Origin: Planctomycetaceae bacterium
Lineage (GTDB): Bacteria; Planctomycetota; Planctomycetia; Pirellulales; PALSA-1355
Reading direction: 5' to 3'
DNA: 64,000 nucleotides
Assembly (NCBI GenBank): GCA_003153375.1
Contig: PLYM01000202.1
Coordinates: 62,001-126,000, forward strand
Both the position numbers and the translations under genes were made by a program. Positions 22,848 through 28,405 of the stretch are shown one piece after another. Positions within the stretch are counted from its first letter, which is position 1; the number at the start of each line of letters is the position of its first letter. The notes under the pieces were generated by a model that saw nothing but the letters and a program-made list of their open reading frames with translations, was not told where the DNA came from and did no database searches.

Positions 22848-24716
22848 TCAAGGCTCCGAGGCAGGTACTTCCGAGTTCGCGGCGGCGTTCGAGTTCTGGG
22901 CCTCTGGATTGTCGTAGGGAGCGTCGAAGAATAGATCGCCCTTGTTTTCCGTTGTAGCCTCAAGAAACGAGACTCGCTGTCCGCCATCATCGACCCGATT
23001 GCTGCCGACGCTGTAGAGCAGATAGCCATCGTCGGTGCGGCGATACACCAGCGGCCGATTGCTGTACGGGTCGATGGGGACCCATGCCAGATATTCAGGC
23101 ACAATGCTGGCAAGCGATTGCGGCGGCGCTCCCTGGAGCAACACATGCCGCCGCACGGCCGCTTCGGCAGTAAGCAGTCGACTTCTCGTCTCGCTTCGTG
23201 TTCGGATCTCGCTTATTCTGTAATCACTTTCCGTGAGCTCGTCGATCCAGTGAAAGTATCGCCCATACCAGCCGAATGCCAATCGATTCCAGGCCCATTC
23301 CCTTTCAAGGATCGCGCCTAGCGGCTCCCGTCTATTGCTGAACTCTTCCAGCCCCAATCTCATTCTGTTCAGGGCAACTGGATCGAGCTTCGTCAAACAC
23401 CTGGTAATGCGATCGAAGGTGTCTCCGGCGATGGCCTCTGCGACAAAGTATTTATTGGTGCTCGACCCGTGCGAGAGTTTCTCAGACAGACGAACGGCAT
23501 CCAAATATGCGGTTATCGCACTGCCCGGGCAGTCTCCAGCAGTCGCAGCCTTAGCCTCAATCCACAAAGCTCGGCATAGACTCCGCATGGCCTGGTCGGT
23601 TGCGAGGTCACCACTCATTGATGCCATAGTGAAGTCAAACGGACATCGGCACGGCGTGTCGAGTCCTTCTCGCAGCAACGACAATTGGGCAGCATTATCT
23701 CGCATGAAGGCCTGGCAGGCATCCATCGTCGCTTCATCGCCGTCAGCATTCGGCACAGCTGTCCAGTTCAACGAGTTGCCCGCTCGCACCAGATCGTCAA
23801 AACCATTCGGACTCGGCAACGCCTCCAGCGGAGGCGGCACTGGCGGCAGCAACGCCCAATACGTCGCCCCCAGGGAGGAAGCGACTACGAATAGAATTCC
23901 CAAGAGCGCTAATCGGACCGGCTGCCGCCAAAGACTCGATAACGTTGCGAGTGCGATGCCTCGCTCCGCGGCGTCGTTCCCACCTCCGCGGTTCGTGACA
24001 CGAGCCCGACCAAGCAAACACAATACGGTCAGAGTCAATATCTCTTGGCTAAAAATCTCAAGCGTCCACCAGCCCACGGTCAACCGAGTGAGGTAGTTGA
24101 AAAAGTCAATGAAACCTAACGACACTTGAAATCCCTCGAGCAACGCGCAAACACATGCCGTTGCGATCAGCAATGCGAGCCCGCGAATATTCCTCGACCC
24201 GCGTCCCCAGGCACCCCACGCGGCCGCAACTGTTACCGCACCCAGCAGAGCGCCGACTGCAATCCACGGCAGGAAGTCGTCTATGGTTCCAATGAGCTCG
24301 GTGTCTACCGCATGCCGTAGAATCGCCAGCCCCGCGCACGCCAGAAGCACACCCTTCAATACATCGCCCAGATGAAATTGCGGCGCACGGAGGGCCGGTG
24401 ATAATGCCGCAGCCTGGGCACGCTCAGAAAACTCGCCGCTCGATCTTCGTGCCGCAAACCACCTGTCGACTCCGGGCCCAAGCCCCAGGGCAACAACGAC
24501 GACAATTACTTCGGAGGCATAAACGGCTAGCAGCTCGTATGCCCCAATAGGTGTGAGAGCCGCCAGCAGCAATACGACCGGCGACCAGCGCCACAGCCAA
24601 CTCACCGGGCCGCGCATCGCCCACAGCGCCGCCAAACCAAAAAGTGAGGCCGTCAGGACGGCCGTCCCGCCGGCGAGCAACGTGATCATCAAGAATCGCG
24701 TTTCGAACCAGGACAT
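22848..24716 (-). CDS. Lower-GC multi-spanning membrane protein, unknown function
   Basis: A 622-residue protein. The N-terminal 290 residues contain eight or more membrane segments (for example LMITLLAGGTAVLTASLFGL and LALLGILFVVASSLGATYWA). The C-terminal 330 residues are soluble and helical and end in PIDPYSNRPLVYRRTDDGYL followed by LYSVGSNRVDDGGQ, a tail seen in many planctomycete proteins of unknown function. Base composition differs from its neighbours: a 60-base sample at 23161-23220 has 32 G/C, against 39 in 22141-22200 inside hemA. The gene is bordered by palindromic repeats on its downstream side. I do not recognise a function. The ribosome-binding site is weak, and an ATG eight codons downstream is an alternative start. 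Confidence 0.75.
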   Translation of the reverse strand: MSWFETRFLMITLLAGGTAVLTASLFGLAALWAMRGPVSWLWRWSPVVLLLAALTPIGAYELLAVYASEVIVVVVALGLGPGVDRWFAARRSSGEFSERAQAAALSPALRAPQFHLGDVLKGVLLACAGLAILRHAVDTELIGTIDDFLPWIAVGALLGAVTVAAAWGAWGRGSRNIRGLALLIATACVCALLEGFQVSLGFIDFFNYLTRLTVGWWTLEIFSQEILTLTVLCLLGRARVTNRGGGNDAAERGIALATLSSLWRQPVRLALLGILFVVASSLGATYWALLPPVPPPLEALPSPNGFDDLVRAGNSLNWTAVPNADGDEATMDACQAFMRDNAAQLSLLREGLDTPCRCPFDFTMASMSGDLATDQAMRSLCRALWIEAKAATAGDCPGSAITAYLDAVRLSEKLSHGSSTNKYFVAEAIAGDTFDRITRCLTKLDPVALNRMRLGLEEFSNRREPLGAILEREWAWNRLAFGWYGRYFHWIDELTESDYRISEIRTRSETRSRLLTAEAAVRRHVLLQGAPPQSLASIVPEYLAWVPIDPYSNRPLVYRRTDDGYLLYSVGSNRVDDGGQRVSFLEATTENKGDLFFDAPYDNPEAQNSNAAANSEVPASEP

Positions 24717-24894
24717 TAGCCGTCTCAGAAACCGCCAATCGAAAGCTCTCAGCCGATCTCATCGGCGACAGTCGCTCCCCATCAATTACACCCACCCGCT
24801 AGTCAAAAGTCGAATTCCCCACGCCCTTCTCGCTGTATCCCTCCTTCCTGCCGACTATACTGCCGAAACACGCGGTCTCTGGGGGCGATCGATC

Positions 24895-27108
24895 ATGAGT
24901 CGGACGGTTTTTCGCACGTGTACGCTTTGCGAGGCGATGTGTGGGCTGAAGTTCGAGGTCGATGGCGAGCGCGTGCTGGCGGTGCTGCCGGACGAAGAGG
25001 ACGTTTTTTCTCAGGGCTTCATCTGCCCCAAGGGCACGGCGATCGCCGCGGTACACGATGACCCGGATCGGCTGCGCACGCCGATGCGGCGCATGGCCAG
25101 CGGCGACTTCGAGCCGATCGGCTGGGAGGAAGCCTTCTCGCTGGTGGCTCGGCGGCTCAAGGAAATCCGCGCCCAGCATGGCGGCGACGCGACGGCCGTT
25201 TACATGGGCAACCCGGTGGCGCACAACTATGGCGCGTTGGCGCTGCGCAATGCCGTGTTCGCGGCCCTGGGCACGCGCAATTGCACCAGCGCCGGCTCGC
25301 AAGACACCAGTCCCCGCTTCGCGGTCTCTTATTATCTGTACGGCGCCTCGCTGATCGTGCCGGTGCCCGACATCGATCACACGCAGTATTTTCTCTGCGT
25401 GGGCGCCAACCCGCGGATCTCGAACGGCAGCCTGCTGGCCGCGCCGGACATTCGCAAGCGGATGCTGGCCATCCGCCAGCGCGGCGGCCGCGTGGTGGTG
25501 GTCGATCCGCGCCGCAGCGAAACGGCCCGCGAGGCCGATGAGCATCTGGCCATCCTGCCCGGCGGCGACGCGGCCTTTCTGCTGTCGCTGGTTCAGGTGC
25601 TAGTCGCCGAGGGCCGGATCGATCGGGCCAAGATTGCCACGCTGGCCCGGGGTTGGGACGAGATCGAACGCCGGATCGCGCCATTCGCGCCCGAGCGCGT
25701 CGAGGCCATGACCGGCATCGACGCCGGCACGATTCGCCGCGTGGCCCGCGAGTTTGCCGACGCGCCGTCGTCCGCGGCCTATTCGCGGGTCGGCGTCTGC
25801 AACAATGCACACGGCACGGTCGCCTCGCTGGCTACCGATCTGCTCAATCTGGCCGCCGGGCGGATGGGCGAGGTCGGTGGATCGATGTTCGCCACGCCGC
25901 CGTTCGATACGAGGCCCATTCTCAAGCTGACCGGAGCTGATGGCCACGCGCGCTGGCACAGCCGGGTGCGCAAGCTGCCCGAAACGTTTGGCGACCTGCC
26001 GGCATCGATCCTGGCCGAAGAAATGGAGACGCCCGGGCCGGGCCAAGTGCGGGCGCTGGTCACGTTCGCCGGCAACCCGGTGCTCTCGACCCCCAACGGC
26101 CGGCGTCTCGACGCGGCGCTCGAGCTCTTGGAGTTCATGGTCTCGATCGACCTCTACATCAACGAGACCACACGGCACGCCGACGTGATTCTGCCGCCGG
26201 CCTGGGGGCTGGCCGAAGACCACGTCGACTTCATCAACACGGCCGTCGCCACCCGCAACACGGTCCGCTGGTCGCCGCCGGTCTTCGAGAAGCCCGCCGG
26301 CTCCTGGGCCGATTGGCAGATCCTGCTGGAGTTGATCTATCGCCTGGGCGGCGGCCCGACGGGCCTGAAAAGCCTTGACTGGCTCTATCGCCTCGGGCGG
26401 CGCGTGGGCATTCACTGGAAGCCAGAATCGACGGCCGACATGCTGTTGCGGCTGGGCCCCTATGGCGATCGATTCCTTCCCTGGTCGCGCGGGCTGAACC
26501 TGAAGAAGCTCAAACGCGCCCCGCACGGCATTGACCTGGGCCCCTTGCGGCCGGGCGTCGCCCATCGCATTCTGCACCGCGATCGCCTGATGCACCTGGA
26601 TGTGCCGGTGCTGTTGAAGGCCATCGACGAACTGGCTGACTCACTAGAGTCCGCGCCCTCGGGCGACGACGCGCTGCTCTTGATTGGCCGTCGCGAGCTG
26701 CGCTCGAACAACTCGTGGATGCACAACGTGCCCGAGCTGGTTTCCGGGCGCGCTCGGTGCGTGCTGTTGGTTCACCCCGCGGATGCCCAGCGCGCGGGCG
26801 TGGGGGACGGCGAAACGGCCGTGCTCGAAAACCACATCCACACGGGCGAGGTCACAGTGCGCATCAGCGACGAAATGCGGCCGGGCGTGGTCAGCTTGCC
26901 GCACGGCTGGGGGCACGTGGCCAGCGCCCGTTGGCAGCGCACCGCCGGGGCACATGCCGGGGTCTCGATCAACGACTGGACCGACGATCAACGGGTCGAG
27001 TCGGTCGTCGGTCAATCAATTCTCAACGGGTTGCCGGTGCGCCTGAAAGCGAAAATGCCCGACAGCGGCGACGCCCACTCGGCATCCCCCGCGCGGGCAC
27101 AGATTTAA
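24895..27108 (+). CDS. Molybdopterin-dependent oxidoreductase with [4Fe-4S] site
   Basis: A 737-residue member of the DMSO reductase/formate dehydrogenase superfamily. An N-terminal iron-sulfur motif uses Cys9, Cys12, Cys16 and Cys44 (CTLCEAMC and GFICPKG). Mo-bis-MGD-binding regions follow, including YMGNPVAHNYGAL, CVGANPRISNGS, VVVDPRRSETA and, in the C-terminal domain, RSNNSWMHNVPEL and LPHGWGH. There is no Tat signal, so it should be cytosolic. No electron-transfer subunit or cofactor gene is adjacent, so redox partner and substrate are unknown; formate, or a substrate of the assimilatory or acetylene-hydratase-like side groups, cannot be distinguished. The ATG has a GGGGG stretch 10 bases upstream and gives the expected Cys spacing. 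Confidence 0.9.
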   Translation: MSRTVFRTCTLCEAMCGLKFEVDGERVLAVLPDEEDVFSQGFICPKGTAIAAVHDDPDRLRTPMRRMASGDFEPIGWEEAFSLVARRLKEIRAQHGGDATAVYMGNPVAHNYGALALRNAVFAALGTRNCTSAGSQDTSPRFAVSYYLYGASLIVPVPDIDHTQYFLCVGANPRISNGSLLAAPDIRKRMLAIRQRGGRVVVVDPRRSETAREADEHLAILPGGDAAFLLSLVQVLVAEGRIDRAKIATLARGWDEIERRIAPFAPERVEAMTGIDAGTIRRVAREFADAPSSAAYSRVGVCNNAHGTVASLATDLLNLAAGRMGEVGGSMFATPPFDTRPILKLTGADGHARWHSRVRKLPETFGDLPASILAEEMETPGPGQVRALVTFAGNPVLSTPNGRRLDAALELLEFMVSIDLYINETTRHADVILPPAWGLAEDHVDFINTAVATRNTVRWSPPVFEKPAGSWADWQILLELIYRLGGGPTGLKSLDWLYRLGRRVGIHWKPESTADMLLRLGPYGDRFLPWSRGLNLKKLKRAPHGIDLGPLRPGVAHRILHRDRLMHLDVPVLLKAIDELADSLESAPSGDDALLLIGRRELRSNNSWMHNVPELVSGRARCVLLVHPADAQRAGVGDGETAVLENHIHTGEVTVRISDEMRPGVVSLPHGWGHVASARWQRTAGAHAGVSINDWTDDQRVESVVGQSILNGLPVRLKAKMPDSGDAHSASPARAQI

Positions 27109-27197: not shown

Positions 27198-27545
27198 TCA
27201 ATCCTCGCCTTCCTCTTCCCACTCCTCGTCTTCGTCCTCGTCGTCGTCGTCGTCATCATCCCAATCGTCGTCGTCATCGTCCTCCCACTCCTCGTCGTCG
27301 TCTTCCTCTTCGTCGTCCTCCTCCTCCTCTTCATCGTCGTCCTCGACCTCTTCCCACTCGTCCTCCTCGAGGTCGTCCTCTTCATCGTCATCCGCTTCGT
27401 CGTCGTCTTCCTCGTCCTCGTCGTCATCTTCGTCTTCGGCGCGCAGACCGTCGAACGAACTGCCGGGCAGCAGTTCGCCATGCGGCGGGGCGTGGAGGTT
27501 GAGCAATTCCTCGAGTGTGTCTTCAGACAGGACGGTGGTGGTCAC
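27198..27545 (-). CDS. Extremely acidic low-complexity protein coupled to ScpB
   Basis: A 115-residue protein. The first 36 residues are ordinary (VLSEDTLEELLNLHAPPHGE), but from about residue 37 to the end roughly nine of ten residues are Asp or Glu, interrupted mainly by four Trp residues. The start is a GTG that overlaps the stop of scpB as GTGA, so translation is probably coupled to scpB. Acidic tails of this sort can mimic DNA or bind basic proteins such as histone-like proteins; this is inference only. The coding strand is highly repetitive (GAC/GAA/GAT/GAG), so length variation between strains would be expected. The predicted protein is not in a family I recognise. Confidence 0.65.
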   Translation of the reverse strand: MTTTVLSEDTLEELLNLHAPPHGELLPGSSFDGLRAEDEDDDEDEEDDDEADDDEEDDLEEDEWEEVEDDDEEEEEDDEEEDDDEEWEDDDDDDWDDDDDDDEDEDEEWEEEGED

Positions 27546-28405
27546 GGTTCAGTTTCCTCCTCAAGATCATCAAGAATATAGTCGTCGTTGGTTCGATTCA
27601 GTTTATTTTCGCTCGCGGGGTTCGCGAGGGACGGGTCGGTTGTTGGCTGGGGTGCGGCCGATGGCGTTCTGAGCAAGTCGGCTCGCGGCAGGTCATCCAG
27701 ATGTCGCAGCCCAAATACTTGCAGGAAGCGTTTTGTCGTGGCGTAACGGTACGGGCGTCCCAGCTCCGCGGCACGACCCGCCGTGCGCACCAGGCCGCGG
27801 TCCATCAATTGTCGCAGGATCTCACCGCAATCGACTCCTCGGATGCCTTCAATTTCCGCCCGCAGCACCGGTTGACGATACGCGACAACGGCCAAAGTTT
27901 CCAGGGCTGGCGCCGACAGGCGAATTTCGACCGGAGATTTCTGCATTCGCCGCAGCCAGGCCCCGAATTTGGGGCGCGACATCAACTGAAATCCACCGGC
28001 CGCTTCCTCCGCCCGAAAGGCACTTCCTGTCTCATCGTACCAGAGGTTGAGCCGGCGAATTAATGTACGTGCTTCAGTTCCGTCCGCCAAGCCGGCAAAT
28101 TGGGCCAGCTTGCGCGTCGTCAGCGGTTCCCGAGCCAAAAACAGCACGGCTTCCAGGCGTGCCGCGCGGGGATCGCGCGCGGCGGCGGCCGTAGCCAGCG
28201 ATTGCTGCACACGCGGTGCCAAACGCAGCCGCCAATCGGTGCGTTTCCGCTCCAAGGCCTCGAGCCGGGCGCCCGGGTTGCCGGAAAATCCGCCCGAGCG
28301 CGCGATACTGTGCAGTTGCTGGGCTGGCCAGCGGCGGATTTTGTCGCAGCGCGAAAAAATGGCAGCCGACCCTCGGGGGTTGAGCCAAACGGAACGGAAG
28401 TCCAA
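27542..28405 (-). CDS. scpB: SMC-ScpAB complex subunit ScpB
   Basis: A protein of up to 287 residues with two winged-helix domains of ScpB. Recognisable parts are RLEAVLFLAREPLTTRKLAQ (about residue 82 on), the conserved core RLSAPALETLAVVAYRQPVL then RAEIEGIRGVD, and GRPYRYATTKRFLQVFGL. ScpB dimers bind ScpA and regulate the SMC ATPase in chromosome segregation. About 80 Arg-rich residues precede the domain. The assumed start is TTG at 28405; another TTG at 28255 would remove most of the extension, so the N-terminus is uncertain. scpA is not adjacent. The downstream acidic gene overlaps the stop by four bases. Confidence 0.88.
   Translation of the reverse strand: MDFRSVWLNPRGSAAIFSRCDKIRRWPAQQLHSIARSGGFSGNPGARLEALERKRTDWRLRLAPRVQQSLATAAAARDPRAARLEAVLFLAREPLTTRKLAQFAGLADGTEARTLIRRLNLWYDETGSAFRAEEAAGGFQLMSRPKFGAWLRRMQKSPVEIRLSAPALETLAVVAYRQPVLRAEIEGIRGVDCGEILRQLMDRGLVRTAGRAAELGRPYRYATTKRFLQVFGLRHLDDLPRADLLRTPSAAPQPTTDPSLANPASENKLNRTNDDYILDDLEEETEP

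Follow-up and report, generated by a model that had tools for sequence, protein, structure and literature searches.

The window, by which we mean the whole 64-kb stretch of DNA that was analysed, comes from a 6.7-Mb draft genome (G000) and carries on its minus strand an scpB gene followed directly by a short gene for an extremely acidic protein. The features of this locus are as follows:

27542..28405, minus strand: scpB, 287 residues when read from a TTG at 28405, the start codon being unconfirmed
27683..28159, minus strand: winged-helix core of ScpB (Pfam SMC_ScpB), residues 83-241
27704..28132, minus strand: clade-specific Arg/Lys positions of ScpB (R92, R98, R117, R144, R152 and R234), mostly missing in other planctomycetes
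27556..27561, minus strand: Shine-Dalgarno (SD) sequence AGGAGG of the acidic gene, within the scpB coding sequence, duplex energy -12.2
27543..27545, minus strand: GTG start codon of the acidic gene, overlapping the scpB TGA (27542-27544) as GTGA
27198..27545, minus strand: acidic gene, 115 residues, GTG start, stop codon at 27198-27200, read as an ORF and with counterparts in relatives
27201..27437, minus strand: hyperacidic tail, the last 79 residues, defined by composition, with disorder predicted from a fused relative
27345..27356, minus strand: WEEV tetrapeptide, residues 64-67, the sole conserved motif of the acidic family

A molybdopterin oxidoreductase gene on the plus strand (window 24553-27108) is convergent with the acidic gene and ends about 90 nt away from it.

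The initial annotation had described a GTG start overlapping the scpB stop codon and a protein whose last 79 residues, four of them Trp, are about 90% Asp or Glu. This description is borne out: 71 of the 79 residues are D or E (90%), four are W and none is K or R, and the acidic ORF behind scpB is confirmed as real. The whole protein contains 77 D/E among its 115 residues, with a net charge of -76 and a pI of 4.05, and its gene is the sole place in the six frames of the window with at least 20 D/E per 30 residues. Given that the D/E codons are mixed (31 GAC, 22 GAG, 15 GAA and 9 GAT), the gene is not a pure DNA microsatellite. The protein has no Pfam match at E ≤ 0.01, the window has no Rfam match, and neither the acidic protein nor ScpB matches any family among the PADLOC anti-phage defence models. 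A search for homologues elsewhere with the N-terminal 40 residues gave weak matches only, because the N-terminus is poorly conserved.

The upstream gene encodes the SMC-Scp subunit ScpB, its tandem winged-helix domain scoring well above the curated cut-off (Pfam SMC_ScpB, PF04079, E 3.6e-48, 163.6 bits against a cut-off of 27.4). NCBIfam TIGR00281 agrees (111.1 bits, cut-off 89.2), and the PDB matches are 4i98, 3w6j and 1t6s. Since the named loci whose ScpB comes closest belong to a Blastopirellula marina isolate, a Pirellulales bacterium and Rhodopirellula maiorica SM1, the order of the window genome and its relatives is probably Pirellulales. Of 39 near relatives, 38 have a ScpB, and among 176 genomes from the order, 168 have one at E ≤ 1e-40. 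In all, 149 genomes (148 of the 168 plus G038; the other 20 ScpB-positive genomes were left out) contributed the 150 scpB loci that we read, representing 20 families.

An acidic partner was scored when 24 D/E in 30 residues occurred in the 1.5 kb that follow the ScpB core. At this threshold, 79 loci have a separate acidic ORF and 57 (in 14 families) an acidic ORF fused in frame to scpB, while 11 have none and 3 lie at a contig edge. Six of these last 14 fall just under the threshold or are cut by a contig end, yet carry an acidic ORF with SD and GTG (L188, L203, L206, L221, L281 and L230, the last at a contig edge), and two are not assessable, the contig ending within ScpB (L250) or as the acidic stretch begins (L025). 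Loss of the reading frame in relatives had been named beforehand as the outcome that would count against the gene; the pair and its frame are kept in 142 of the 148 assessable loci (136 at threshold and 6 more). The six loci without an acidic gene beside scpB all belong to family f17. Other neighbours vary between genomes while scpB stays.

No acidic partner was seen after scpB in Gemmata, in Singulisphaera or in most of the other loci examined from planctomycetes and other phyla. A DNA pattern for [DE]3W[DE]3 occurs in 34 of 38 relatives, with most matches at the scpB locus. Of 294 genomes from across the phylum, a strict DNA pattern for WEEV matched two, each a member of the order, although this pattern also misses motif-bearing members of the order and only five order genomes were drawn. 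The looser [DE]3W[DE]3 pattern has at least one match in 100 of the 294; the out-of-order matches that were inspected, a part of all matches, are other proteins (FtsK/SpoIIIE-like linkers, ATPase tails and others) or acidic ORFs not tied to scpB (L295, L298, L309 and L326). D/E-rich, Trp-containing stretches are present in FtsK/SpoIIIE-like proteins of other planctomycetes (L283, L284 and L325), and a PilT-like ATPase and another protein from the same class but another order (L324 and L328) have short D/E/Trp C-terminal tails (DDEDWDDEDDWD).

Two loci deserve separate mention. One from an uncultured Pirellulaceae (L074) has a fused acidic ScpB tail and, behind it, a separate acidic gene bearing WEEV, which is possibly a duplication in progress. 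A draft genome (G335) holds two scpB-acidic loci, one fused and one split (L173 and L223), the split one resembling family f7; the two locus types in one draft are perhaps due to contamination.

The split genes start at GTG in 66 of 79 cases, at ATG in 12 and at TTG in one, and in 67 the SD energy is -7 or lower. The GTGA overlap, from which the initial annotation had proposed translational coupling, is confined to the window and a few genomes, 3 of the 79 split loci having it (gap of -4). As a general rule such coupling is ruled out: the distance from the scpB stop to the acidic gene ranges from -35 to 569 nt with a median of 121, and most split genes have a gap of tens to hundreds of nucleotides and a strong SD of their own.

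The same initiation site is found inside the fused ORFs. For in-frame SD-starts of the linker, the best energy is -8 or lower in 47 of the 57; the two remaining frames give 5 and 1 such ORFs. In a protein-only alignment of the 57, the start column holds 50 Val (all GTG), 4 Met (ATG), 2 Leu (TTG and CTG) and 1 Ala, so that it reads GTG, ATG or TTG in 55; elsewhere in these genes, 320 of 901 Val codons are GTG. The 50 Val come from 13 families, and shared descent is left in these codon counts. All six fused named loci outside the main set (L066-L070 and L075) have the same arrangement. When synonymous codons were shuffled, support for the internal start was modest gene by gene (median p 0.13; p ≤ 0.05 in 10 of 57), and Fisher's method over the 14 family medians gave 0.0027. 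An SD and start codon conserved inside a longer ORF, the hallmark of a nested in-frame gene, are thus present in the fused relatives, the window's own gene being split. With an in-frame SD before this start column, the free acidic protein is probably made in the fused species too.

On a tree of the ScpB core, the fused or split state needs at least 18 changes, of which 4-5 are forced by well supported branches; by this tree, the two forms interconvert repeatedly. Given that the start is kept in both forms while the state changes, the comparison indicates that selection acts on what both forms share, an acidic ORF with an initiation site of its own, and that it is variable whether ScpB continues into this ORF.

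For comparison of the proteins, 134 complete acidic sequences were used; two cut by a contig end were left out, and for L185, L212 and L216 we placed the start at an arbitrary 30 residues ahead of the point where the acidic region begins. Median length is 129 residues, and the N-terminus is poorly conserved throughout. The tails have a median of 83% D/E, 3.8% W, 2.7% Y and 0.8% K+R. W[ED]EV occurs in 123 of the 134 proteins, where 200 residue shuffles of the tails gave 2.6 on average and 7 at most, and 122 have exactly one WEEV, placed a median of 45 residues from the C-terminus. It is kept in fused and split forms alike. When 54 fused ORFs are aligned, the four motif residues hardly vary and the rest of the tail keeps its composition only. 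AlphaFold2 applied to a fused relative (single chain, 54 alignment rows) gives a confident ScpB core and a pLDDT of about 50 over the whole tail, WEEV included; the tail is thus predicted to be disordered, and docking of the tail or WEEV onto ScpB is not seen in this single-chain model.

Where the acidic gene is absent from scpB, it can be found elsewhere. In three genomes of one genus (G397, G421 and G436), scpB lacks an acidic neighbour and an acidic gene lies 330-425 nt behind smc on the same strand, before polA; smc was identified by TIGR02168 (E 6e-102 to 2e-104), and the acidic ORF is D/E- and Trp-rich, with an SD and a GTG or ATG start. We located smc in 30 genomes, and in the stretches read around it, some of which end in or near smc, an acidic gene adjoins it in these three alone. 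The remaining unlinked genomes have the gene next to one for an ASCH protein (G448), next to one for a HEAT-repeat protein (G452) or at the end of a contig (G464). Even at a distance from scpB, the gene retains an SD of its own. A search of 22 genomes for the D/E-Trp pattern, whose single matches were inspected in part, gave no match in G456 and, in G424, only a fragment at a contig edge. The tie to the SMC complex that had been suggested from the gene order of the window is therefore reinforced, both by the 57 in-frame ScpB fusions and by the relocation to smc.

ScpB itself differs where it is linked to the acidic gene. The mean net charge of the core is +8.4 in fused loci (n=56) and +7.4 in split loci (n=79), the corresponding means being +2.7 for 26 other planctomycetes and +1.2 for 23 loci from other phyla. 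A second, distant ScpB is present in almost every genome of the order, and no acidic stretch is present at any of 30 of its loci. Within genomes, the linked ScpB averages +8.4 and the second ScpB +1.4 (n=30, Wilcoxon 3.6e-6); all of these are raw values with shared descent left in. The shift comes from clade-specific Arg/Lys residues, including R92 (Asp in most others), R98, R117, R144, R152 and R234. Of the roles first considered for the acidic protein, namely a DNA mimic, a binder of basic nucleoid proteins or a regulator of SMC loading, the charge shift favours mimicry or loading regulation. No scpA adjoins either ScpB in the ScpA loci that were read. A match to ScpA was found in 18 of 19 genomes searched and not in the window's draft genome, probably owing to an assembly gap.

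Smc-ScpAB, one of the most thoroughly studied chromosome machines of bacteria, is generally depicted as a complex of three subunits. We propose, with a probability of roughly 45%, that the acidic ORF encodes a real, order-wide conserved, disordered polyanion which is a dedicated partner of Smc-ScpAB and competes with DNA at ScpB. As to binding and mechanism, we infer the following from the sequences. The free acidic protein would be the conserved product, and fused genomes would make two products per gene, the ScpB-acidic fusion and a free acidic protein from the internal start. WEEV may anchor the protein to its partner, most likely ScpB or the Smc head, while the D/E tail could act as a flexible mimic of DNA and cover the basic winged-helix face with which ScpB contacts DNA. 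Occupancy of ScpB by the tail would then delay or gate DNA capture and loading, or would prevent non-specific sticking of the complex to DNA.

A precedent exists for such competition. ScpB and MukE are equivalent KITE subunits. The phage T7 protein gp5.9 binds MukE in its DNA-binding cleft and inhibits the loading of DNA by MukBEF (PMC7617805). Like gp5.9, the acidic protein is small, strongly acidic and tied to the small winged-helix subunit of a bacterial SMC complex, with a DNA-contacting face as the proposed target here, although gp5.9 comes from a virus, acts as an inhibitor and has a defined structure when bound to MukE. The acidic protein, in contrast, is chromosomal, predicted to be disordered and encoded with or fused to ScpB, which would be its putative binding partner. 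It shares the high negative charge of the DNA mimics gp5.9 and Ocr (-76 in 115 residues); as to their folded, DNA-phosphate-like shape, the tail has a pLDDT of about 50 in the AlphaFold2 model of the fused relative. It may thus be an endogenous, tunable counterpart of gp5.9 acting on MukE. For the nested start, the parallel is Cas11 (Cas11b), which is made by internal in-frame translation of cas8 (PMC11899642). There, and probably here too, one gene yields both a large subunit and, from a start inside it, a free C-terminal product. Unlike Cas11, the nested product here would be a disordered polyanion, and the order shows many switches between the fused and the separate state.

Eukaryotic acidic histone chaperones hold histones off DNA, and the acidic protein could likewise serve as a chaperone for basic nucleoid proteins (histone- or HU-like), keeping them off DNA while condensin acts. 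We know of no histone partner for it, nor of any counterpart of WEEV or of the ScpB fusion in acidic histone chaperones. The tail does have the make-up of such a chaperone, a D/E-rich, predicted disordered segment with aromatic anchors (83% D/E, 3.8% W, 2.7% Y). Its spaced Trp, Tyr and Phe recall APLF-type chaperones, and in the APLF acidic domain the aromatic anchors are needed for histone binding (PMC9328677). Linkage to SMC genes would also place the protein on the chromosome. Nevertheless, this alone leaves unexplained both the fusion to ScpB and the basic shift of the linked ScpB but not of its paralogue, and we consider it unlikely; it predicts co-variation with a basic nucleoid protein.

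The relocated genes bear on another account, in which the protein is a general acidic factor unrelated to condensin (an RNA polymerase delta-like tail, a cation buffer or a ribosome factor) that hitchhikes in an operon behind scpB. Three of the six unlinked genomes, with the gene by the ASCH gene, by the HEAT-repeat gene or at the contig edge, fit this account. Yet scpB stays while other neighbours change, and three further observations (the ScpB fusion, the move to smc and the charge shift specific to ScpB) speak for the SMC complex, which makes this account fairly improbable. The delta subunit of Firmicute RNA polymerase is likewise a small bacterial protein with an acidic D/E tail, but it has an N-terminal globular domain; no such domain is recognised in the acidic protein, which lacks any Pfam domain, nor did we see a link to genes for RNA polymerase.

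The 57 fused ORFs, the frequent interconversion of the two forms and the co-occurrence of a fused tail and a separate gene in L074 would also be expected if the stretch were merely an acidic, disordered tail of ScpB with a role in solubility or phase behaviour, the separate gene being a translated remnant and the internal start a fossil. A fossil start should decay, however, and this one reads GTG, ATG or TTG in 55 of the 57; the gene also persists with its own SD where scpB is distant, and WEEV is retained in both forms. We therefore regard this account as quite improbable. A low-complexity artefact, that is, a meaningless ORF in an expanded GA-rich repeat, would be suggested by composition alone, has a negligible chance of being correct, and is ruled out by the conserved WEEV, start site and frame, with the mixed D/E codons, the one WEEV per protein, the SD and start and the order-wide conservation all against it.

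The proposal of a dedicated, DNA-competing partner of Smc-ScpAB can be taken one step further, to a tentative and rather doubtful version in which the acidic protein is a built-in, tunable DNA-mimic regulator. Tethered and free forms from one locus would set, by their ratio, how often the basic face of ScpB is open to capture DNA; WEEV would be the docking motif, and the extra ScpB arginines would have co-evolved with it. Both nested in-frame genes and acidic proteins that compete at SMC subunits have precedents. As far as our literature searches reach, a chromosomal acidic protein built into the ScpB loci of a whole order is new, and term searches returned no description of a ScpB-linked acidic protein.

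If this further version is correct, the acidic protein would be the first DNA mimic to be an endogenous subunit of a bacterial SMC complex. A conserved fourth, hyperacidic partner of Smc-ScpAB in one order would show how an SMC complex can acquire its own DNA competitor. The concrete residues to mutate are WEEV and, in ScpB, R92, R98, R117, R144, R152 and R234. The nested start of the acidic gene appears to survive repeated gene fusion and fission, and the fused, split and smc-linked states found within one order offer a natural experiment on the part played by the ScpB/KITE surface in DNA capture.
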